Source: Beijerinckiaceae bacterium
GTDB lineage: Bacteria; Pseudomonadota; Alphaproteobacteria; Rhizobiales; Beijerinckiaceae
Direction of reading: 5' to 3'
Assembly: GCA_019745195.1 (NCBI GenBank)
Contig: JAIETL010000062.1
Location: 1 to 64,000 of the forward strand
DNA length: 64,000 nt
Within the stretch, counting starts at the first letter, position 1, and each line of letters starts with the position of its first letter. Shown in pieces: positions 36,165-47,410 of this stretch. Below the pieces are notes generated by a model. It saw nothing but the letters and a program-made list of their open reading frames with translations. It made no database searches and had not been told where the DNA came from. A program made the position numbers and the translations under genes.

Positions 36165-36189
36165 GGAACCTATGCTTGGGGTCGACGTT
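36165..36189 (+). promoter_or_regulatory. EcfG promoter upstream of the 92-aa exported protein
   Basis: GGAAC (36165-36169), 16-base spacer, CGTT (36186-36189): an exact match to the alphaproteobacterial general stress promoter GGAAC-N16/17-CGTT. It is 53 bp before the ATG at 36243. Confidence 0.82.
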
Positions 36190-36242: not shown

Positions 36243-36521
36243 ATGTTGACCAACAGCCTTGCCCCCATCAAACGCGCCGCCCTTTTCTTCGGCTTCATGG
36301 GCATCGCTGTCGCGACGCTGACCTTGGGCGCCGGCCTCCAGGTTCCCGCCGATCAGAGTTCCACCACCGTCGAGCAGGCCAAGATCGAACGCAACATCCC
36401 GACGGATGCGCAGTTCGCGGCCGTCAACCCCGGACAGCGCACCGTGACCAGCGTCAAGCGCGCCATTCCGAGTTCTCAGCAGGCGCGCCTGGCCGTCTCG
36501 TCAGACAATGTGATGCGCTGA
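36243..36521 (+). CDS. Hypothetical small exported protein, predicted GSR member
   Basis: A 92-aa protein with an N-terminal hydrophobic segment (AALFFGFMGIAVATLTLGAG) as signal peptide or anchor and a polar remainder (QVPADQSSTTVEQAKIERNI). I recognise no family. It has its own exact EcfG promoter upstream and a strong terminator (36600-36626) downstream, so it is a free-standing unit controlled by the stress sigma factor encoded 3 kb away. Probably periplasmic or membrane-anchored. Confidence 0.75.
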   Translation: MLTNSLAPIKRAALFFGFMGIAVATLTLGAGLQVPADQSSTTVEQAKIERNIPTDAQFAAVNPGQRTVTSVKRAIPSSQQARLAVSSDNVMR

Positions 36522-36599
36522 GACTTTTTTGAGCGCGGCTGGAACCCATCGGAGTTTCCGGCGTTCAGCCTCCAGCGCTCCCTCGCGCGACACTTCCAA

Positions 36600-36626
36600 A
36601 AGCCGCCTTCGGGCGGCTTGTTTTTT
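36600..36626 (+). terminator. Rho-independent terminator
   Basis: Eight-base stem AAGCCGCC/GGCGGCTT with a TTCG loop, followed by G and six T. It ends the unit of the 92-aa protein and precedes the transglutaminase gene. Confidence 0.92.
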
Positions 36627-36683
36627 GGCCTGTCACACCGGCATTCCACATTAGCGGACGCGATCCGTTTCCCGAGGACCACT

Positions 36684-37562
36684 ATGTATCTGCGCATCCG
36701 CCATGCGACGACCTACAGCTATGCCGGCCCGGTCCAGTTCGGGCCGCACCGGCTGATGCTGCGGCCGCGCGATTCCTTCGATCTGCGCGTCGTCGATACG
36801 GCGCTGACGATCTCGCCGCAGGCGCGGCTGCGCTGGATGCACGACGCCTATGGCAACTCCGTCGCGATCGCGAATTTCGCAGGTGTCGCCGACAAACTCG
36901 ACATCGTCAGCGAACTGGTGATCCAGCGCTTCGGCTCGGCCCTGCCGCGAACCGAGATCGAAACGACGGGCGCGATCACCGGGGTCGTCTACAGCGAGGC
37001 GGAGCGCGCTGTGCTGGCGCCCTATCTCGACCTCGCCGCCGCCGATCCCGACGGGGTTCTCGACCAGTGGCTGGCGGATTTTCGCGCCCGCATCGGACAG
37101 GGCTCGGGTCATCTTCTGCGCGACCTGGCGCATGGGATCTACACCAGCCTGAGCTACGCTTTGCGCTATGACGAGGGCACGCAGCATCCAGCCGACACGA
37201 TCAGGCAGGCCGCCGGCTCCTGCCGCGACTATGCGTGGCTTTTTATCGAACTGGCGCGACGGATGGGCTTCGCGGCGCGTTTCGTCACCGGCTACATCCA
37301 TGATCGCTCCCCGGACGCGGCCGGGCTGGTCTCGGCTGTGGGGCTGACGCATGCCTGGGCGGACGTCTTCATTCCAGGGGATGGCTGGGTCGAGTTCGAT
37401 CCGACCAACGACCTCGTCGCCGACCGCCAGTTGCTGCGCGTCGCTGTGGCGCGCGTGCCCGAGGACGCCTCGCCGGTTTCGGGCAGCTTCACAGGGCTGA
37501 CCGGCTCGTTTCTGGGCCTCGGCGTCGGCGTCTCGATCGAGATGATCGACGCGCCCGCCTGA
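36684..37562 (+). CDS. Transglutaminase-like protein
   Basis: A 292-aa bacterial transglutaminase-fold protein. The N-terminal beta domain has the family start MYLRIRHATTYSYAGPVQFG and HRLMLRPRDS; the papain-like catalytic triad is visible as Cys in AAGSCRDYAWLFIELAR, His in LTHAWADVFIPGDGW and Asp in FDPTNDLVADRQ. These cytosolic proteins are usually linked to peptide or amide processing; substrates are unknown. The ATG at 36684 is used because the sequence upstream is terminator DNA. Confidence 0.92.
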   Translation: MYLRIRHATTYSYAGPVQFGPHRLMLRPRDSFDLRVVDTALTISPQARLRWMHDAYGNSVAIANFAGVADKLDIVSELVIQRFGSALPRTEIETTGAITGVVYSEAERAVLAPYLDLAAADPDGVLDQWLADFRARIGQGSGHLLRDLAHGIYTSLSYALRYDEGTQHPADTIRQAAGSCRDYAWLFIELARRMGFAARFVTGYIHDRSPDAAGLVSAVGLTHAWADVFIPGDGWVEFDPTNDLVADRQLLRVAVARVPEDASPVSGSFTGLTGSFLGLGVGVSIEMIDAPA

Positions 37563-37571
37563 AGCCAGCTC

Positions 37572-39209
37572 TCAGCCTGCGACGCCGATGCGCCAGGCGC
37601 CAAGCGCCCGGCCCGCCGGCGCCACCGTCTGCACCGCCTCGATCTGGGCGATCAGGCCGGCGAAGAGTTTTGGCGGTTCGCTGTGCGGCAGATCGCGATC
37701 GGCTGTGATCTCGATCTCGATGCCGCCCTCGTCATGGTCGCGCGCCGCGACCGCGATGCTGATGCTGGGCGTGTCGCGTAAGGCGCGCGAGACGACATCG
37801 ACGATGAGGAAGCCGAGCGGGATGATGCGATCGACCGACAGTGCGGCCTGCGTGTCCAAAGTGCCCGAAATCCACTGGTCGCGATTGCGCAGCAGGTTCG
37901 AAATCATGGTCACGACGTCATCGAGGAACAGGTCGACCCGGACCGGCTGCATCTCGCCATCGGCCAGGGTGAAGCGATAGGCGGCCGACAGGACATGGAC
38001 GCGACACTCGGCGTCCGACAGCGCAAGCCTCGCCTCGCCGCGATAGTCGCGCTTGGTCAGGCCGATATAGCTCTGCACCACCTGCAGGCTGTTCTTGACC
38101 CGGTGGTGCAGTTCGCGGACCAGGAAGCGGTTGTCGTCGAGCGCGGTCTGGAGCTTGCGCTGGCGAACCTCCTGCTCATCGACCATGCCGTTAAAGGCTT
38201 CGGCCACGCTGCGGATGTCGGACGGCATGTCGTCGGCGACGACCGCCCGCGCGCTGCTCAGCGTCGAACGCGCCCGCGCGGCCGCCTCGATGCCGCGCAA
38301 CCAGCGAACGCAATGCTGGTCGATCGCCCGCAGATAGACCAGGCAGAGCAGGCCAAGTGTCAGCAGCGGCGCGATCAGCAGCGTCAGGAACTGGATGTAG
38401 GCGGCGCGCTCCGGCGCGCCGTCGAAGGAGGCGATGACATAAAGATCGGGGTCGGCGACCATGCGGGCGACATAGGCGCGTGTTGCGCCGGAGCGGCTGG
38501 GCGCCGACCATTGCATCTGCTGGTCGGGAACCCGCGTCCGCAACGGCAGCCATGACGCATCCGCTTCACCGGAACCGCGCGCGACGACGATGTTTCCGGA
38601 GCGCGAGACGAGCGCGACGTGCATCCCTTCGCCTGCCGATCCGAGATCATAGACCTGGTCGAGCAAGGCGGGGTCGACCGCGAAAAGGCCGCCCGCGCCA
38701 TTGGCGGCGCGGGCGCTGACAACCAGATAGGAAATCCCGCCGATGACGGCTTGGCCATAGCGGACATCGGCGGATTCGGGCCCGCCCCAAGCGGCGATCG
38801 GCGGCATCGTCTGAAGTTCGACCGTCGTCCTCGCAAGATCGGCCGGGCTCACCGCTGCCACCTTCGACGCCGCGCAGGTCCCGCCGGGCACGGTCAGAAG
38901 CACCGCCTCGAACCCCCTGATGCTGTCGAGCACGGCGCGCGCCGTCGCCCCGCAATCCGAAGACACGCCTTCGCCCTGCCGGATGGCGGCGGCCGAGGCC
39001 AGCAGGGTGCGCAATGCGCCGCGATACCAGAGCCGGGTGCGCACCGCGAAATCATCCGCGGCGCGCGCCTGCGACAGGGCGATGGCCGCATTGACCGTGC
39101 GATAGGTGGTGAAGGCTGCGATGGCCGTCAGGCAGGCGATCGGTAGCGCGATCGCGACGAGAAGCGCCAGCAACCGCCCCCTTACCGTACTGAAGCGCGT
39201 CAGTCTCAT
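37572..39209 (-). CDS. HisKA_2-type sensor histidine kinase, degenerate ATPase domain, next to ecfG
   Basis: A 545-aa sensor with membrane helices at about 13-35 and 272-293, a periplasmic sensing domain between them and a HAMP-like linker (EAAARARSTLSSAR). The HisKA_2 dimerisation box RELHHRVKNSLQVVQSYIGL (366-384, phospho-His at 368/369) is intact. The ATPase domain after it (about 420-545) lacks a clear N-box Asn (IVDVVSRALRD where NELVTNAIKHA is usual) and any DxGxG loop, so it may not bind ATP normally. It starts 16 bp after ecfG in the same operon, so it is the natural candidate to control PhyR phosphorylation. A pseudokinase or phosphatase role is inference. Confidence 0.85.
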   Translation of the reverse strand: MRLTRFSTVRGRLLALLVAIALPIACLTAIAAFTTYRTVNAAIALSQARAADDFAVRTRLWYRGALRTLLASAAAIRQGEGVSSDCGATARAVLDSIRGFEAVLLTVPGGTCAASKVAAVSPADLARTTVELQTMPPIAAWGGPESADVRYGQAVIGGISYLVVSARAANGAGGLFAVDPALLDQVYDLGSAGEGMHVALVSRSGNIVVARGSGEADASWLPLRTRVPDQQMQWSAPSRSGATRAYVARMVADPDLYVIASFDGAPERAAYIQFLTLLIAPLLTLGLLCLVYLRAIDQHCVRWLRGIEAAARARSTLSSARAVVADDMPSDIRSVAEAFNGMVDEQEVRQRKLQTALDDNRFLVRELHHRVKNSLQVVQSYIGLTKRDYRGEARLALSDAECRVHVLSAAYRFTLADGEMQPVRVDLFLDDVVTMISNLLRNRDQWISGTLDTQAALSVDRIIPLGFLIVDVVSRALRDTPSISIAVAARDHDEGGIEIEITADRDLPHSEPPKLFAGLIAQIEAVQTVAPAGRALGAWRIGVAG

Positions 39210-39225
39210 CCTGTGATCATGCGCA

Positions 39226-39786
39226 TCAGATGTTGACGATCTCCGAGCCAGCCCGCTGCAGCGCGGCGGCGCTTTGCCGGTCGGGCCCGAGATCGTCGAG
39301 GCCGCCGATGGAGAGAAGCTCGGCGAGCTTTGTGCGGGCGCGGTTCACGCGGCTCTTGATCGTGCCGATGGCGACACCGCAGATCTCGGCGGTCTCCTCA
39401 TAGGACAGACCGGTCGCCCCGACCATGATCAGCACCTCGCGCTGCTCCTCCGGCAGCTTCGCCAGCGCCTTGCGGAAATCGGCGAGGTCGAGATGGCTCT
39501 CCTGATTGCCGCGCACCGCGAGACGCTCGGCGTAGGTGCCCTCGCTGTCCTGCACCTCGCGCCCGCGCTTGCGGTAGAGAGAGTAATAGGTGTTGCGCAG
39601 GATGGTGAAGAGCCAGGCGCGCAGGCTGGTGCCGGGCTCGAACTTCTCCGAATTGCCCCAGGCCTTGAGCAGCGTGTCCTGAACCAGATCGTCGGCGAGC
39701 TGCATCGAGCCCGACAGCGACGCCGCGAACGCGCGCAGGTTCGGAATCTCCTTGATCAGGCCGTCCTTGAACTCAGTGGCGCTCAT
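39226..39786 (-). CDS. ecfG: General stress ECF sigma factor EcfG
   Basis: ECF15-group sigma factor (186 aa). Region 2: FAASLSGSMQLADDLVQDTLLKAW, FEPGTSLRAWLFTILRNTYYSLYRK; region 4: LPEEQREVLIMVGATGLSYEETAEICGVAIGTIKSRVNRAR. It directs transcription from GGAAC-N16/17-CGTT promoters when freed from NepR. Its start overlaps the nepR stop by 14 bp. Several matching promoters surround it in this window. Confidence 0.97.
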   Translation of the reverse strand: MSATEFKDGLIKEIPNLRAFAASLSGSMQLADDLVQDTLLKAWGNSEKFEPGTSLRAWLFTILRNTYYSLYRKRGREVQDSEGTYAERLAVRGNQESHLDLADFRKALAKLPEEQREVLIMVGATGLSYEETAEICGVAIGTIKSRVNRARTKLAELLSIGGLDDLGPDRQSAAALQRAGSEIVNI

Positions 39787-39994
39787 CGGCGGAGTCCCCG
39801 GCGGCGCGGTTTTCCTGCGCTTCGAGTTGCGCGAGCAGCACCAGAAATTTGTCGGGCACCGGCGCGTTGACGATATCGTCGTAATGCGCCTTCAGCGACC
39901 GGCCGATCGATTCCTGGACCTTGGGATCCATAAAAATCTCGGCCTCGTCCTGCCCCCCGGCCGGATCGGCCATCCCCGTCTCGATAGTGCTCAT
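39773..39994 (-). CDS. nepR: Anti-sigma factor NepR
   Basis: A 73-aa anti-sigma factor that holds EcfG inactive until phosphorylated PhyR sequesters it. The conserved NepR core is visible: MDPKVQESIGRSLKAHYDDIV then APVPDKFLVLLAQLE, with a non-conserved acidic N-terminus and short C-tail. ATGs at 39994 and 39997 are adjacent; the GAGGG ribosome site favours 39994. First gene of nepR-ecfG-kinase, divergent from phyR, with an EcfG-type promoter 133 bp upstream suggesting autoregulation. Confidence 0.93.
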   Translation of the reverse strand: MSTIETGMADPAGGQDEAEIFMDPKVQESIGRSLKAHYDDIVNAPVPDKFLVLLAQLEAQENRAAGDSADERH

Positions 39995-40126
39995 CATCGC
40001 CCTCGCGCCCGAGGCGCGCCCGCTTTTCCAGCAGGTCGCACCAATGGTCATTGTCAACACATGCCGGCGGATGATCGACCCGCCGAAGTTTCGCCACTCA
40101 CAAAGCATGCACTCATACGGCACATG

Positions 40127-40151
40127 AACTGGCGGTTCCGGCAAAGGTTCC
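40127..40151 (-). promoter_or_regulatory. Candidate EcfG promoter of nepR-ecfG
   Basis: Minus strand GGAAC (40151-40147), 17-base spacer, GTT (40129-40127); the base before GTT is A. It lies 133 bp from the nepR start in the divergent nepR/phyR spacer. A second GGAAC sits inside the spacer. Confidence 0.55.
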
Positions 40152-40230
40152 CGCAAAAATGCAAAATAAATTGCTTGTCAGGAAGCCGCGCCCAGTGCTC
40201 ATTTCCGCGCACGTGACAAAGGACGGTTTT

Positions 40231-41028
40231 ATGTCGATCGCCAAAGAAATTGCGCCCCATCTGCCTTATTTGCGCCGGTTTGCACGCGCCCTCAGCGGCA
40301 CGCAGGCCGGCGGCGACGCCTATGTCGTCGCCATGCTGGAAGCGCTGATCCTCGATCCGTCATCGTTTCCGCGCGATCTCAACCCGCGCGTCGGCCTCTA
40401 CAACATATTCCTGAAGCTCTGGTCGTCGGTCGGCCTCAACGTCGCACCTGGCGGCCAGGCCGAGCTTGACCGCTCCTCGGCCGAGCGCAACCTCGAAGCG
40501 CTGACGCCCCGGCCGCGACAGGCCTTCCTGCTGCGCACCGTCGAGGGCTTCTCGATCGAGGAGGTCGCTCAGATCATCGACGTCAGCCCCTCGGAAGCCG
40601 CCGGCCTCGTCCAGACCGCCGGTCAGGAGATCGCCGAGCAGGTTGCGACCGACGTCCTGATCATCGAGGACGAGCCGATCATCGCGCTCGACATCGAGAC
40701 CATGGTCGAGGAACTTGGCCACACCGTCACCGGCGTCGCGCGAACGCATCGAGAGGCGATCGCGCTCGTGGCCAAGAAGCGCCCCGGCCTCGTTCTGGCC
40801 GATATCCAGCTTGCCGATGGCAGCTCGGGCCTCGACGCCGTCAACGAGATCCTGGCTTCCATCGACGTGCCCGTGATCTTCATCACCGCCTATCCCGAGC
40901 GCCTGCTGACCGGCGACCGGCCGGAGCCTGCCTTCCTGATCACCAAGCCGTTCCAGCCCGAGGCTGTGAAGGCCGCGATCAGCCAGGCGCTGTTCTTCGA
41001 CCGCCGCGCCGGCCGCAAGGCCGCCTGA
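40231..41028 (+). CDS. phyR: General stress response regulator PhyR
   Basis: Anti-anti-sigma factor (265 aa): an ECF-sigma-like N-terminal domain (1-135, with APHLPYLRRFARALSGTQAG and LTPRPRQAFLLRTVEGFSIEEV) fused to a receiver domain (140-255) with acidic pair E146/D147, phospho-acceptor D191 (LADIQLADG), T219 and K239 (LITKPFQ). When phosphorylated it binds NepR and frees EcfG. I chose the ATG at 40231 (AAAGGA ribosome site) because the earlier in-frame start adds unconserved sequence. Divergent from nepR; a strong terminator follows. Confidence 0.97.
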   Translation: MSIAKEIAPHLPYLRRFARALSGTQAGGDAYVVAMLEALILDPSSFPRDLNPRVGLYNIFLKLWSSVGLNVAPGGQAELDRSSAERNLEALTPRPRQAFLLRTVEGFSIEEVAQIIDVSPSEAAGLVQTAGQEIAEQVATDVLIIEDEPIIALDIETMVEELGHTVTGVARTHREAIALVAKKRPGLVLADIQLADGSSGLDAVNEILASIDVPVIFITAYPERLLTGDRPEPAFLITKPFQPEAVKAAISQALFFDRRAGRKAA

Positions 41029-41177: not shown

Positions 41178-41342
41178 ATGGTGATGACGTTCGTGGCGAC
41201 TGTTGTCGCCGGTGCATCGATCGCGACCGCCCTGTTCGGCGGGCTCATACCCAGCGACGTTCTGGCGGGCGAAGCGCTGTCGCTGGCTTTGGCCGCGACA
41301 GCCACCGCGGCAGTTGCCGGCGCATCCGCTCTGGACGGCTGA
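41178..41342 (+). CDS. Small (54 aa) hydrophobic membrane protein
   Basis: ATG GTG ATG ACG start with a GAGGAGC ribosome site 7 bp upstream; the peptide is MVMTFVATVVAGASIATALF then GGLIPSDVLAGEAL and a second Ala-rich hydrophobic segment. Two membrane segments are likely, separated by a short polar turn. No family recognised. It sits between an EcfG-type promoter and the extensin-like gene (24 bp downstream), so it is probably the first gene of a stress-induced operon. Confidence 0.65.
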   Translation: MVMTFVATVVAGASIATALFGGLIPSDVLAGEALSLALAATATAAVAGASALDG

Positions 41343-41366
41343 GCCGATGCCAGGCGGGGGAGGCGC

Positions 41367-42263
41367 GTGAGGCGGTTTTGCCGCTGTCTGGCGGCCTTGA
41401 TGATCGCGCTGCCGCTTCCGGCTGCCGCTCAGGGCGCTCGCCCGGACGCGGCTGTCGCTGAACCAGCGCCGATGCCGCCACGCCGCCCGGCCAGCCTTCC
41501 GCGCAGCAAAGCTGTTGAACAGCCAGCCTCTGGCGCGCCATCCGCAGCCGAGCCGAAAACCGCTCTGGTCGGAGCGGCCAAAGATGGCGGCACAATCGAG
41601 AGCGCGATGCCGCCCCCGCCCGCTTCGATGTCATGCACGGTCGGGCTCTCGGCGAGCCATGGCGACGGCATATCGCCGATCGATCCAGCGAAGCTGCATG
41701 CCGGGATGGAGGCGGGTTGCCATGTCGAAGAGCCCGTTATCGTCCGCAGGCTGACGCTTCGACAGGGAGAAGCGTCGGAAACGCTTGCGCTCGACCCGCC
41801 CGCGACCATGGCCTGCGACCTTGCCGCATCGCTGGCGCGGTGGGCCCAGACCGGATTGCAGCCTTTGGCGAAGGGGCACTTCTCGCAGCGCGTCACGCGG
41901 TTGCGCGTCGGCGGCGGGCATGAATGCCGGCGGCGCAACCGGTCGAAAGCCGGCCCGCTCAGCGAACATGCAACCGGGCGTGCGCTCGACATTTTCAGCT
42001 TCGTGCTGCAGGGCGCGGAGCGTCCCGAAGCCGCAAGCGAGGCAAGAGGCGCGGCGACTTCGGACGACGGCGGAAAGACAATCACCATCAGCGTCGAACG
42101 TCCGGCGGGGCCGCGGCAACTCGCCTTCATCGAGGCTGTCAGACAATCGGCCTGCGGGGCCTTCATGACGGTTCTTGGACCTGGCTCCGATGCGGCCCAC
42201 GCCAACCATCTGCATCTCGACATCCAGGCGCGACGCTCCAACGCCAGCCGGTTCTGCCAGTGA
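41367..42263 (+). CDS. Extensin-like (D-Ala-D-Ala peptidase-related) exported protein
   Basis: A 298-aa exported protein. Signal peptide (CLAALMIALPLPAAAQ), a Pro/Ala-rich linker, then an extensin_2-type domain: the Cys residues MSCTVGL, AGCHVEEP, MACDLAASLARWAQ, ECRRRN and SACGAFM, plus the M15-peptidase-like metal motifs SEHATGRALDIFSFVL (His, Asp) and ANHLHLDIQ (His). These residues suggest a zinc peptidase fold acting on peptidoglycan in the periplasm. The start is GTG at 41367 after GGGGGAGG; no ATG fits. Likely co-transcribed with the 54-aa gene under EcfG control. Confidence 0.88.
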   Translation: MRRFCRCLAALMIALPLPAAAQGARPDAAVAEPAPMPPRRPASLPRSKAVEQPASGAPSAAEPKTALVGAAKDGGTIESAMPPPPASMSCTVGLSASHGDGISPIDPAKLHAGMEAGCHVEEPVIVRRLTLRQGEASETLALDPPATMACDLAASLARWAQTGLQPLAKGHFSQRVTRLRVGGGHECRRRNRSKAGPLSEHATGRALDIFSFVLQGAERPEAASEARGAATSDDGGKTITISVERPAGPRQLAFIEAVRQSACGAFMTVLGPGSDAAHANHLHLDIQARRSNASRFCQ

Positions 42264-42277
42264 TTACGGTTAAGGGA

Positions 42278-42526
42278 TTAAAGGACGCGAACTCGATGCG
42301 CTGCCGCGAGCGCGGGGCGCACACCTTTCTCGACGGAGCGCTCCCGACGCGCAGAGATCACGGTCAACGCCTCGGTCAGGTCGCAGCCAGCCGCGATCAG
42401 TGCCTCCAGCTCCCACAACCGGAGCGCAATGGGTGCATGGCCACAGCCCGACAGGATCGCGGCATGCAACCCAGACTGAGCAGATTTCTGCAGAAGCTGA
42501 CGGCCTCGGCTATGCGCAAGGATCAT
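42278..42526 (-). CDS. Hypothetical 82-aa protein, predicted GSR member
   Basis: A minus-strand gene supported by its start region: ATG at 42526 with the ribosome site GGAAGG 6 bases upstream, and an exact EcfG promoter (42558-42582) 32 bp upstream. The protein begins MILAHSRGRQLLQKSAQSGL and continues with helical segments (IALRLWELEALIAAGC, LTEALTVISARRERSV), ending VRVL. Codons mostly end in G or C, as in neighbouring genes. It converges on the extensin-like gene with a 14-bp gap. No family recognised; the promoter and ribosome site are the main evidence. Confidence 0.6.
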   Translation of the reverse strand: MILAHSRGRQLLQKSAQSGLHAAILSGCGHAPIALRLWELEALIAAGCDLTEALTVISARRERSVEKGVRPALAAAHRVRVL

Positions 42527-42557
42527 TATCGGCCTTCCACCCGGATTCTTGATCTGC

Positions 42558-42582
42558 AACGCCACATATCCGGTCGGGTTCC
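42558..42582 (-). promoter_or_regulatory. EcfG promoter (minus) of the 82-aa gene
   Basis: Minus strand GGAAC (42582-42578), 16-base spacer, CGTT (42561-42558): exact consensus. The -10 element ends 32 bp from the ATG at 42526. It is back-to-back with the plus-strand promoter at 42594. Confidence 0.8.
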
Positions 42583-42593
42583 ACGTTATGACA

Positions 42594-42618
42594 GGAACTG
42601 TGGAGCGATTGCGGCGTT
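42594..42618 (+). promoter_or_regulatory. EcfG promoter (plus) of the DUF992 gene
   Basis: GGAAC (42594-42598), 16-base spacer, CGTT (42615-42618): exact consensus, 31 bp before the DUF992 ATG. Only 11 bp separate its -35 from that of the minus promoter. Confidence 0.82.
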
Positions 42619-42649
42619 TTCCGGAAACTATCGAGACAGGAGATTTGAG

Positions 42650-43201
42650 ATGTCGAACCGGCCGATCCAACCTGGCGTCGCCAAGGCAGGCCTTCGCGCC
42701 AAGGCAGGCCTTTTTGCCAAGGGGAGCCTCGCCGCGCTCACCATAGCGGCGGCGGTCCTGACGTCGGGCGTCGCCCATGCGCAGTCGGATGCGCCGGCCG
42801 GTCGGCTCAGTTGCGCCGTCGGCAGCGCGATTGGTCTGGTGGTGACCTCGCAGCGTTCGATGGATTGCCGCTTCACGCCCCGGCGCGGACCGACGCAGCG
42901 TTATGTCGGCACGGTTCGCAGCTTCGGCCTTGACCTTGGGTCGATCCGCGGCAGCACGATGTCCTGGCGGGTCTATGGCCCCTATGCCCGTGCGCCGCTC
43001 GGCGCGCTCAACGGGCGCTATGCCGGGGCGAGCGCTGGGGCCTCGGTCGGGACCGGAGCGGCCGCAACGGCCCTGATCGGCGGCGCCGACAACGAGGTCA
43101 GGCTCCAGCCGCTCTCGCTGCAATCCTCGCGGGGGATCAATGTGGCGCTGGGCGTGACCGGGTTCGAGCTGACGCTCGCGCCGTCGCGGGGCCGGCGCTG
43201 A
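42650..43201 (+). CDS. DUF992 exported protein
   Basis: A 183-aa exported protein. Signal peptide (SLAALTIAAAVLTSGVAHAQS), then the DUF992 pattern: GRLSCAVGSAIGLVVTSQRSMDC with two Cys, PRRGPTQRYVGTVRSFGLDLG, and a Gly/Ala-rich membrane-like middle (GRYAGASAGASVGTGAAAT) ending GVTGFELTLAP. Periplasmic or outer-membrane location likely; function unknown. The ATG at 42650 follows GACAGGAG and an exact EcfG promoter, so it is a predicted stress-regulon gene. Confidence 0.88.
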   Translation: MSNRPIQPGVAKAGLRAKAGLFAKGSLAALTIAAAVLTSGVAHAQSDAPAGRLSCAVGSAIGLVVTSQRSMDCRFTPRRGPTQRYVGTVRSFGLDLGSIRGSTMSWRVYGPYARAPLGALNGRYAGASAGASVGTGAAATALIGGADNEVRLQPLSLQSSRGINVALGVTGFELTLAPSRGRR

Positions 43202-43297
43202 CGGCCGCACGAGCCGGCAGGCTCACGTTTCGCTAACCTTGTTCCTGCAAGTTGAATCGAATGCGACGAAATCGCACGTCGATTAAGCGTGATTTCG

Positions 43298-43323
43298 GGA
43301 ACCAAGCGCAAAGCTGTGACGTT
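43298..43323 (+). promoter_or_regulatory. EcfG promoter of the single-domain response regulator
   Basis: GGAAC (43298-43302), 17-base spacer, CGTT (43320-43323). It is 66 bp before the ATG at 43390; the spacer variant N17 is within the known range. Confidence 0.7.
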
Positions 43324-43389
43324 ACCCGAGTACATCACATCCTTTGGGCACATCACACCTGTTACCGTTGAGGAAAGGGAGGCTGGTAG

Positions 43390-43749
43390 ATGTCAAATAT
43401 CCGCATCCTGATCGTGGAAGACGATCCGTTCATCGCGATGGACATCGAATCGGCCGTCGCCGAACAGCTTGGCGACAAGGCCGAACTGATCATCGTCGAA
43501 TCCGTGGAAGATGCCCGCCGGGCGGCGGCGTCGCGCCTGTCCTGCGCCTTGCTCGACATCGACGTCGTCGGCGGCAAGACCTTCGGCGTGGCCGAGAGCC
43601 TGCTTGCCAACGGCACACCCTTCGCCTTCGTATCGGGCTCGACGCCCAACGACGTGCCCCGTCCGCTGCGCGACGTCCGCTTCCTGCGCAAGCCGTTCTC
43701 GACGCGCGAGATCGCCAGCTTCGTTTCGAACGCGATCGAGACCGTCTGA
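43390..43749 (+). CDS. Single-domain response regulator (receiver only)
   Basis: A 119-aa receiver with no output domain. Acidic pair D11/D12, phospho-acceptor D56 in ALLDIDVVGGKTF, Ser82 in FVSGST and Lys101 in FLRKPFSTREI. Lone receivers in the GSR of alphaproteobacteria (SdrG/MrrA type) relay or drain phosphate between HisKA_2 kinases and PhyR, and an EcfG promoter precedes this one. It faces a CHASE3 kinase across an 7-bp gap, a natural partner by position. Confidence 0.9.
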   Translation: MSNIRILIVEDDPFIAMDIESAVAEQLGDKAELIIVESVEDARRAAASRLSCALLDIDVVGGKTFGVAESLLANGTPFAFVSGSTPNDVPRPLRDVRFLRKPFSTREIASFVSNAIETV

Positions 43750-43756
43750 CCGGTTC

Positions 43757-45130
43757 TCAGTCCCGCCTCGGGAACGTCACCGTCACCTTCATGCCCGGCC
43801 GCTCCGCGTGGCCGGGCATGAGCGCGTTTGCGGCCATGACGGCGCGCATGCTGCGGATCAGGCTCGCGATCACGGTCTGGCCCAGCCCCTTCGCGCCGGC
43901 CGTGGGAGGCATGCCGACGCCGTCATCCTCGACGGAAAGCGCCAGTGCCGGAGCGCCATCGAGTTCGCAGGGGGCGAAGCGCACGACGATCCGGCCCTGC
44001 GCGCCGTCCGGGAACGCATGCTTGATCGCGTTCGTCACGAGTTCGTTGACGATCACCACATAGGACACCGCATCGCGGCCAGGCAGCCTGATGTCGTCCA
44101 TCGCCAGTTCGATCTCGATCGGCCGGCCCTCGGTGGCCTTGCCGATCTCCTCGAGCAGATCCTCCATATAGGGCCGGGCGTCGATCTCGTCGGTCTCGAT
44201 GTCGAGGCGCAGCCGCCTCTGGCCGGCCGCGATCGCCTGGATTCGGGACTGCGCCTGCGTCAGGGCGGCTGCAACGGCGGGATCCTTGCTCTGACGGCTC
44301 TGCACGTTCAGCAGCGCCGAGATCATGGCCAGATTGTTGCCGACGCGGTGATTGACGTCGCGCAGCAGCGCCTCGATGCGCAGGCGCTCGTTCTCGAGCT
44401 GTTGCGTGCGCTCGCCGACGATGCGTTCGAGCTGGGCGTTCGAGATCGCCAAGGTGGCGCTGCGCCGCTGCCGCTGGCGCAGTTGCGACCAGGCGGCGAA
44501 GGCGAGACCCGCAAGCGCCACGATGATGCCGGCGCTGGCGAGCAGCCGGCGCTGCTCCTCGCTGCGGTTGAGCGCGACCAGGCGGAGATTTTCGGCGAGC
44601 TGGATCTCCTGAACGGTCTCGCGCAACGCGTTCATCGTCACGACGCCGGCGCCCTCCGCCACTTTGGCGATCGCCTCGCTGCGCCGACCCTCCCGCGCCA
44701 GGGCGACGGTGGCGTCGAGCTCCTGCAGCTTCCCGCGCGCCTCGTCACGCGCCTCGGCGATCCGTCGGCGTTGCTCCGGGTCGTCCGAGGCGAGCCGCTC
44801 GAGCGCGTCGAGTTCCGGCATCGCGGCCGCACGGCCGGAGGTGAAAGGCCCGAGATAGGCCTGATCGCCCGAGAGGAGATAACCGCGCTGGCCGGTTTCG
44901 GCATCGCGCATATGGCCGAGGAAGCGCTCGGCGCGCTCGCGAATCTCGATCGAATGGGAGACTTCGCTCGCCGCATCGCGAGCGCGCGCATTGATCCAGA
45001 CCGCCAGAAGAATAGCGATGCCGACGACGGCGATCGCGGTAATCGTGCCGGCGGCGGAACGAAGCCTGGCTCCCAAGACCGGCATGCTGGGCAGCGCAAC
45101 GCGGCTGCGGGACCTGATCTGAGCAGACAT
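43757..45130 (-). CDS. CHASE3-domain HisKA_2 sensor histidine kinase
   Basis: A 457-aa membrane kinase. First helix near 28-45, CHASE3 periplasmic sensor (ERAERFLGHMRDAETGQRGYLLSGD, the CHASE3 hallmark), second helix (LASAGIIVALAGLAFAAW), coiled coil (RIVGERTQQLENERLRIEALL), then HisKA_2 box RDVNHRVGNNLAMISALLNV and an intact ATPase domain (N-box VNELVTNAIKHAF, G1 VEDDGVGMP, G2 KGLGQTVI). Unlike the kinase next to ecfG, all catalytic motifs are present. The ATG at 45130 is preferred to 45166. Convergent with the lone receiver gene; likely a second input to the GSR. Confidence 0.9.
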   Translation of the reverse strand: MSAQIRSRSRVALPSMPVLGARLRSAAGTITAIAVVGIAILLAVWINARARDAASEVSHSIEIRERAERFLGHMRDAETGQRGYLLSGDQAYLGPFTSGRAAAMPELDALERLASDDPEQRRRIAEARDEARGKLQELDATVALAREGRRSEAIAKVAEGAGVVTMNALRETVQEIQLAENLRLVALNRSEEQRRLLASAGIIVALAGLAFAAWSQLRQRQRRSATLAISNAQLERIVGERTQQLENERLRIEALLRDVNHRVGNNLAMISALLNVQSRQSKDPAVAAALTQAQSRIQAIAAGQRRLRLDIETDEIDARPYMEDLLEEIGKATEGRPIEIELAMDDIRLPGRDAVSYVVIVNELVTNAIKHAFPDGAQGRIVVRFAPCELDGAPALALSVEDDGVGMPPTAGAKGLGQTVIASLIRSMRAVMAANALMPGHAERPGMKVTVTFPRRD

Positions 45131-45169
45131 GGCGACCGTGTTACAGGACGCGATCCACAATCCCAATGT

Positions 45170-46190: not shown

Positions 46191-47330
46191 TCAGGCCGCC
46201 TTGGGAAGCGCCGGCTCGCCGCTCTCATCCTCGAGCTGCGCCTGCCGATAGGCCGCGAATTCCTCCTGCGCCACCATGGCGACGAGCAGGATCGGAGTCG
46301 AGAGCACCGCCCCGACCGGGCCCCACAGCCAGAGCCAGAAAATGAAGCCGATGAAAACGAGGAAGGGCGACACGGTCAGGCTGCGGCCGACATAGACCGG
46401 CGTGACTGCGTTTCCCTCGATCAGATGCACGATGAAATAGGCCGCGGCGGGCGCGATCGCGGCCAGCAGCGTTGGCGCATCGAGCAAAGCCCCTGCGAAC
46501 ATCGTCACCGTGACGATGATCGGCCCGATGAAGGCGAGATAGTTCATCACGAAGGCGAGCGCGCCCCAGAACACCGGATAGGGCATGCCGGCCAGCCAGG
46601 CGATGATCGCCGTGACCACACCCATGCCGAGATTGATCACCGTCACGAGGCCGAAATAGCGCGCGGTGCGATTCTCGATCTTCTCGAAGAAGGAGCCGGC
46701 CGATTTGCGCGCGCCCCGGCCGAGGCAAAGCCGCAGGATGCGGGCCTTGAAATGCCGGCGCGTCGCCAGCCAGAAATAGACCGTCGCTATGAAGATCAGC
46801 AGGCCGCCGGCCGCGGCCGACGACGACAGCGCGATCGCCATCAGCGGGTCGCCCTGCGAAACCTCGAGTTCGGCCCCACTCTTGCCGGTCAGCGCCGCTG
46901 CCGCGCTCTTGAGCTGGTCGAGCAGATCGACGACGGGCCGCAGCTTGTTCTGAAGCGCGGCAGCCATCTTGGGGCCCTGGTCGCTCCATGCCGCGATCGG
47001 CACCGCCAGAAGCGTCAGCGCGAAGACGATCACGCCGAGACCCAGCAGCACGACGACGGCCGCCGCCAGATGCTGCGGAACGTTGCGGCGCACGAGCCAA
47101 TCGACCAGCGGACCGAGCACCAGCCCGAAGATCACGCCAGCCACGATCGGCATCGCGATGACCTTGGTCAGATGGAGCGCCGCCGTCGCGAGGATGACGA
47201 AGATGCCGATGATGGCGTAGCGGACGATGAGGTCATGCTCTTGCGGCGTTACGTCCTCATGCGTGTCGGCGACGATCTCGGGCTCTTCCCGATAGCGCGG
47301 AAACGGCCTCCAGGCGGATGAGCTGACCAT
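46191..47330 (-). CDS. AI-2E family (PerM/UPF0118) transporter
   Basis: A 379-aa membrane protein with about eight helices in the AI-2E layout: N-terminal pair (YAIIGIFVILATAALHL, MPIVAGVIFGLVLGPLVDWL), a soluble domain (PKMAAALQNKLRPVVDLLDQ), and the conserved second half (RYFGLVTVINLGMGVVTAII, GALAFVMNYLAFIGPIIVTV, VGRSLTVSPFLVFIGFIFWL with GPVGAVLSTPILL). Family members export autoinducer-2 or act as antiporters; substrate here unknown. The gene has its own EcfG-type promoter candidate upstream. Confidence 0.9.
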   Translation of the reverse strand: MVSSSAWRPFPRYREEPEIVADTHEDVTPQEHDLIVRYAIIGIFVILATAALHLTKVIAMPIVAGVIFGLVLGPLVDWLVRRNVPQHLAAAVVVLLGLGVIVFALTLLAVPIAAWSDQGPKMAAALQNKLRPVVDLLDQLKSAAAALTGKSGAELEVSQGDPLMAIALSSSAAAGGLLIFIATVYFWLATRRHFKARILRLCLGRGARKSAGSFFEKIENRTARYFGLVTVINLGMGVVTAIIAWLAGMPYPVFWGALAFVMNYLAFIGPIIVTVTMFAGALLDAPTLLAAIAPAAAYFIVHLIEGNAVTPVYVGRSLTVSPFLVFIGFIFWLWLWGPVGAVLSTPILLVAMVAQEEFAAYRQAQLEDESGEPALPKAA

Positions 47331-47384: not shown

Positions 47385-47410
47385 AACGTTGGGCTAGAAG
47401 GGAAAGTTCC
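47385..47410 (-). promoter_or_regulatory. Candidate EcfG promoter of the AI-2E gene
   Basis: Minus strand GGAAC (47410-47406), 17-base spacer, CGTT (47388-47385), 55 bp before the ATG at 47330. Sits in the 88-bp gap after polA. Confidence 0.65.

Follow-up and report, generated by a model that had tools for sequence, protein, structure and literature searches.

The anti-sigma factor NepR is laid out as two helices with flexible tails. The EcfG motif has been given as GGAAC-N16-CGTT, and nepR itself is described in the same source as usually missed by automatic annotation because of its size (PMC7083833). Studies in E. coli describe another type of arrangement, the bidirectional promoter, in which a pseudo-symmetrical sequence engages RNA polymerase in two orientations; according to that account, one direction can be repressed when the other is strongly activated, and in the five bidirectional promoters tested there basal activity was too low for competition (PMC12825309). 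A DUF992 protein of Brucella appears in PMC6377625 as an uncharacterised outer-membrane protein.

The window, that is the whole stretch of 64,000 nucleotides analysed here (contig JAIETL010000062.1, positions 1 to 64,000), carries a control cluster of the general stress response (GSR) and inside it a small minus-strand ORF of 82 codons plus stop (42278–42526). Our preferred reading is that this ORF is a small gene transcribed from an EcfG-type promoter and that its product may act by binding a partner; the gene and its regulation, taken together with this looser partner-binding idea, are given a probability of about three in four, and the first part by itself, a real gene under EcfG control, is predicted from the sequence with near certainty.

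The cluster begins with a HisKA_2/HWE histidine kinase gene identified by domain match (37572–39209, minus), which adjoins ecfG (39226–39786, minus; Pfam Sigma70_r2 and Sigma70_r4_2, named from its place beside nepR and phyR). The nepR frame (39776–40156, minus) has its NepR domain at residues 81–115 (Pfam NepR, E = 3.5e-14) and its true start is probably further inside the frame, and phyR (40159–41028, plus; Pfam PhyR_sigma2 and PhyR_sigma-like) encodes the anti-anti-sigma response regulator, so that EcfG, NepR and PhyR are all encoded in this genome. The small ORF occupies the space between an extensin-like gene with which it is convergent (41367–42263, plus; PF06904, E = 9.5e-41), 14 bp separating the two ends, and a divergent DUF992 gene (42650–43201, plus; PF06186, E = 1.1e-43; match in 63 of the 67 genus genomes). 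Further on, an EcfG-type site with an N17 spacer (43298–43323, plus) precedes a single-domain response regulator gene (43390–43749, plus) with a weak receiver match below the Pfam cut-off (Response_reg, E = 0.049), and a CHASE3/HisKA_2 histidine kinase gene, again from a domain match, follows on the minus strand (43757–45166). These genes were looked for in 32 loci of a wider-profile set (25 Bosea, 6 Rhizobiales/Hyphomicrobiales bacterium and 1 Methylobacterium sp.), in 31 of which the small frame is identical to one among the frames of the 67 genus genomes. DUF992 and, by tblastn, the response regulator were matched in 32/32 loci, the extensin-like gene in 29/32 and the CHASE3 kinase in 27/32; phyR, nepR, ecfG and the first kinase were present in 31/32, the miss being a truncated locus of 4,447 bp (L078), and an exact N16/17 site lies within 200 bp upstream of the response regulator gene in 31/32.

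Other EcfG-type sites occur in the same region. An exact site at 36165–36189 (plus) lies 53 bp before a 92-codon frame (36243–36521, plus) that has no Pfam match at E ≤ 0.01 and is matched in 59 of the 67 genus genomes, its own included; another exact site (36541–36565, plus) is followed after 52 bp by a transglutaminase-like frame with a TTG start (36618–37562), and an exact N17 site (47385–47410, minus) lies 54 bp before an AI-2E-transporter-family gene (46191–47330). Additionally, a near-consensus site with one mismatch (40127–40151, minus) stands before the NepR domain and fits nepR-ecfG autoregulation.

A motif scan of the window recovered the two exact GGAAC-N16-CGTT sites between the small ORF and the DUF992 gene, at 42558–42582 (minus) and 42594–42618 (plus), both with a GGAAC -35 box, a spacer within 16–17 bp and a CGTT -10 box. 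As the preliminary description had stated, their -35 boxes are separated by 11 bp (42583–42593), the DUF992 ATG at 42650 lies 31 bp past the -10 box of the plus site, and a GGAAGG ribosome site precedes the minus-frame ATG. This ribosome site (42533–42538, minus) lies 6 nt before the ATG (42524–42526). The closeness of that ATG to the minus-site -10 box also stands, with a distance of 31 bp in place of the 32 given before. Seven EcfG-type sites with spacers of 15–17 were counted in the window against 1.06 expected, a number reached in 0 of 100 shuffles. Genome-wide, on the other hand, exact N16/17 sites are not enriched (83 vs 84 for a reversed-pattern control), so one exact site is weak evidence and most exact matches are background; the exact motif alone was dropped as a mark of regulon membership for this reason. 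From the same site counts, about 0.01 back-to-back pairs whose -35 boxes lie no more than 30 bp apart are expected per genome, and by eye the sole such pair among the 83 listed genome sites is the one at this locus. The preliminary description had argued that such a double coincidence would hardly arise by chance; the argument carries weight for the pair with its conservation and fails for single exact sites, which stand at the genome-wide background. What is decisive for the reality of the observation is that the frame and both sites are conserved in relatives. A sigma-70-like match of 9/12 at 42656–42627 (minus; 1 found vs 0.1 expected) may be a second promoter for the small gene and counts against the preferred reading.

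The small gene was found with a profile made from six sequences in 58 of the 67 Bosea genomes (own included), as a single copy never interrupted by a stop, and the DUF992 gene adjoins the small frame on the opposite strand in every one of the 58 carriers. A frame that is not conserved past its promoter had been named as an outcome that would speak against the proposed small, unnamed stress gene; such conservation was observed, and together with protein-level selection and promoter retention it supports that proposal and the reality of the small gene. One carrier with Ns in the frame (G034) was excluded from the codon, length and start counts, leaving 57 of 58; the sequence sets comprise 39 of the 58 proteins (A2) and 37 of the 54 distinct cores (A3), and 14 of 46 pattern stretches were not confirmed with the wider profile. 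GGA or AGG occurs within the 12 nt ending 4 nt before the chosen start in 56 of the 57 members. Start codons were picked by eye and 19 of 57 are GTG, which counts against the preferred reading, as does the divergence of the window's own member, with LRLW in place of PPFW. With the window protein alone as query against 61 genomes, nine weak non-self matches were obtained (E 0.002–0.008); read in frame, eight of them are the small gene at this locus and one (L007) is a chance match.

The nine genus genomes without the small gene also weigh against the preferred reading; eight of them measure 3.2–3.9 Mb and the ninth (G015) 4.5 Mb. G015 retains phyR, nepR, DUF992 and the regulator, with a one-mismatch N17 site towards DUF992; it gave no small-gene match, its DUF992 match is preceded by 700 bp free of exact EcfG sites, and the stretch fetched has no extensin match. 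By eye, a decayed remnant of the small frame can be seen in it (L067, about 1500–1800). The joint absence of the small gene and of exact sites in G015 counts in favour of the preferred reading. Among the DUF992 copies without the small gene (in five non-carrier genomes, plus four second copies in carriers), exact sites were found in two. In G082 an exact EcfG site points towards a DUF992 copy beside which the small gene is absent. In G080 (L070), a genome without the small gene, an exact EcfG-type site precedes a more distant DUF992 copy and points away from it.

Both promoters are kept in the relatives, although not to the same degree. The small-ORF site is exact in 56 of 58 carriers and has one mismatch in the other two, with a spacer of 16 in 53 and of 17 in five. 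The DUF992 site, counted as matches in register with the small-ORF site, is found in 56 of 58 carriers, exact in 43 and with one mismatch in 13 (eight CGCT, three CATT, one CGGT and one in the -35 box). The promoter of the small gene is thus held more strictly than that of the DUF992 gene (56/58 vs 43/58 exact). Both members are exact in 41/58, and the 17/58 carriers lacking at least one exact member count against the preferred reading. In the 53 small-ORF promoters with an N16 spacer, information reaches 2.0 bits at all five positions of the -35 box and at the final three of the -10 box, with 1.73 at the -10 C, whereas 14 of the 16 spacer columns lie at 0.01–0.73 bit, the exceptions being one of 1.01 and one of 1.77 just before CGTT; the boxes are conserved while the spacer drifts, the pattern looked for in an EcfG promoter. 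The DUF992 promoter, unlike that of the small ORF, has extra conserved bases, TGTGG directly after GGAAC plus T17 and G20, which may reflect a further factor or some structural constraint. Eight carriers (L048, L053, L054, L057 and others) have CGCT as the DUF992 -10 box with the opposite small-ORF promoter still exact, and they look as though the promoter pair were drifting to a one-sided bias. The -35 gap varies in length from 7 to 11 bp among the 56 carriers with both sites. Given the footprint of the polymerase, two holoenzymes at such a spacing would crowd each other, and competition between the two promoters is plausible from this gap.

Selection on the frame was found at the protein level. 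The core LRLWELEALIAAGCDLTEALTVISARR (residues 35–61) corresponds in the family to a conserved pattern of 27 residues, PPFWELExLIxxGxxxxxALxxxAxRR. The pN/pS ratio was 0.27 in this core against 0.75 in the N-terminal and 0.80 in the C-terminal flank (248 pairs, 57 sequences). In a six-frame test on the core DNA (664 pairs), the predicted frame gave 0.34 and the others 0.46, 1.18, 1.27, 2.22 and 2.22; none of the 57 cores has a stop when read in the predicted frame, against 7 to 42 of 57 for the other five readings, and the three codon positions have mean entropies of 0.72, 0.55 and 1.40 bits. All these values are descriptive because the sequence pairs are non-independent. A conserved frame and an excess of synonymous change are both present, and the ratios, the frame test and the codon entropy point to a translated gene with one constrained segment. 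The flanks evolve almost freely, which counts against the preferred reading.

Searches outside the genus yielded no credible relative in three sets of genomes, which overlap and include some genus members: 298 of the family (at most 27 candidates scored each; weak matches, the best one examined), 397 of the order (at most 12 each; three matches, all of the same genus) and 385 of the class (at most 21 each). With these numbers of candidates scored per genome, distant relatives could be missed. The family search separated 23 same-genus genomes (E ≤ 1.4e-10) from 48 others at E 0.002–0.1, and the best of these 48 (G606, E = 0.00225) was rejected: the match spans 14 residues of a frame of 34 codons, and no cluster gene was found within the 4 kb fetched. 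The class search returned the own genome plus two weak matches (E = 0.006 and 0.009). No significant Pfam, NCBIfam or PHROGs match to the small protein was obtained (nothing better than E = 0.015); three pattern matches in viral contigs were not confirmed, plasmids gave nothing significant (one match, E = 0.7), and searches of the open literature found no published account of the gene. The family therefore matches no library searched and, among the searched genomes, is found in one genus alone.

AlphaFold2 predicted two helices for the small protein from 32 sequences (residues 37–45 and 50–66), with a mean pLDDT of 94 for residues 41–50 and 90 for 51–60, and values below 50 for most of residues 1–29 and 70–82. 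The model of another member has the same two helices at lower confidence, with block means of 87 and 78, and adds a short third piece (residues 64–67). Two features count against the preferred reading, the weakness of the first model overall (pLDDT 61, pTM 0.40) and the absence from the second of any residue at pLDDT ≥ 90. No signal or membrane stretch was seen by eye, and the protein is probably cytosolic. A helical hairpin with low-confidence tails suggests a partner-binding protein. Some likeness to UBA and UBA-like domains exists, as the first two helices of the small protein carry the pattern L-xx-L-xxx-G-xxxxx-AL; unlike UBA, the model of the window protein has no third core helix. Weak matches were found in Pfam among 39 members (UBM in two, best E = 0.019; UBA in one, best E = 0.072) and in PDB profiles (UBASH3A chain 2crn, E = 0.21 and, at best, 0.12), and the best Foldseek match was a UBA domain at E = 7.5. 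With no significant Pfam or fold match, UBA membership was rejected. Membership in the NepR family was likewise rejected, since PF18557 was absent from the E ≤ 1 matches of the 39 members and the hhalign probability was 0.1; this is compatible with a NepR-like mode of action.

A frame that is open by chance in GC-rich DNA and follows a fortuitous promoter match would accord with the background level of the exact motif in the genome and with the window frame, which stays open well past the promoter on its upstream side (310 codons, counted from a GTG). This explanation is contradicted by the presence of the gene in 58 of 67 genomes, by selection and by the retained promoter, and its probability is close to nil. 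The minus promoter could also make a regulatory RNA, directed for instance at the extensin-like mRNA near its 3' end, with an incidental frame. This would suit the proximity of the frame end to the convergent gene (-7 to 117 bp in the 28 loci measured); however, the core is under selection in the predicted frame, and neither an Rfam match at the gathering threshold in 41300–43800 nor a terminator-like site in 42200–42700 was found, and we consider the RNA reading very improbable.

Other explanations accept the gene and differ in what its product does. The small protein might be a stress effector, e.g., one protecting or modulating an enzyme, that is merely located in the GSR cluster and exerts no feedback on the EcfG-NepR-PhyR switch or its kinases. 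Effectors make up the majority of EcfG targets, the DUF992 and extensin-like neighbours may be envelope proteins, and the profile of the small protein is unlike NepR. Its constant position beside the regulators fits an effector poorly, and the lack of a signal peptide or membrane stretch does not indicate an envelope role; such an effector is a serious contender at somewhat below even odds. Alternatively, the tails and the two-helix core might act as an EcfG-induced, NepR-like feedback regulator that binds the sigma factor or the PhyR sigma-like domain. Small size, the modelled tails and helices and the adjacency to ecfG-nepR-phyR are in its favour, but the sequence relation to NepR is missing in the searches above and the Bosea NepR is far better conserved, with a mean column identity of 73% (19 sequences) vs 34% for the small protein (32 sequences), which makes this reading rather unlikely.

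Returning to the preferred reading, a working model can be drawn in which PhyR captures NepR and EcfG-RNA polymerase is freed; the polymerase would then start at the back-to-back promoters and transcribe the small gene one way and the DUF992 gene the other. The product would be a small protein made up of a single conserved helical hairpin between flexible tails, and docking of this hairpin onto another protein would be its most likely mode of action according to the models. We rate the chances that it acts by partner binding as even. Since the gene lies within the GSR control cluster, a GSR component is a leading candidate partner, although a partner within the GSR is on the whole doubtful. 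A bolder proposal is that Bosea has gained a fourth protein of the PhyR-NepR-EcfG switch, fast-evolving, with a single hairpin that binds a switch component and a two-way EcfG promoter whose halves are mutually exclusive, the level of the protein in each individual cell being inversely tied to the DUF992 level; this is a long shot. The small gene offers a concrete candidate for a lineage-specific GSR addition beside a well-studied stress switch, and an example of an easily missed small gene that comes to light when a sigma-factor motif is combined with frame conservation and selection on codons.

Compared with known systems, the small ORF resembles the alphaproteobacterial EcfG regulon genes in having GGAAC-N16-CGTT near its start and the genes of a histidine kinase, EcfG, NepR and PhyR a few kb off; unlike them, it has a product without a significant family match and a promoter that forms a back-to-back pair with another of EcfG type. 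With the NepR anti-sigma factors it shares a small size, a GSR locus and, in the model, two helices with flexible tails, whereas it shows no sequence or profile similarity to them and is encoded in its own divergent unit rather than in a nepR-ecfG operon. Finally, as in the E. coli bidirectional promoters, divergent transcription starts closely spaced and one polymerase may block the other (PMC12825309). Unlike in E. coli, here two complete alternative-sigma promoters stand back to back with their -35 boxes 7–11 bp apart, and the locus offers a natural promoter pair, served by a single alternative sigma factor, on which interference between polymerases is measurable.
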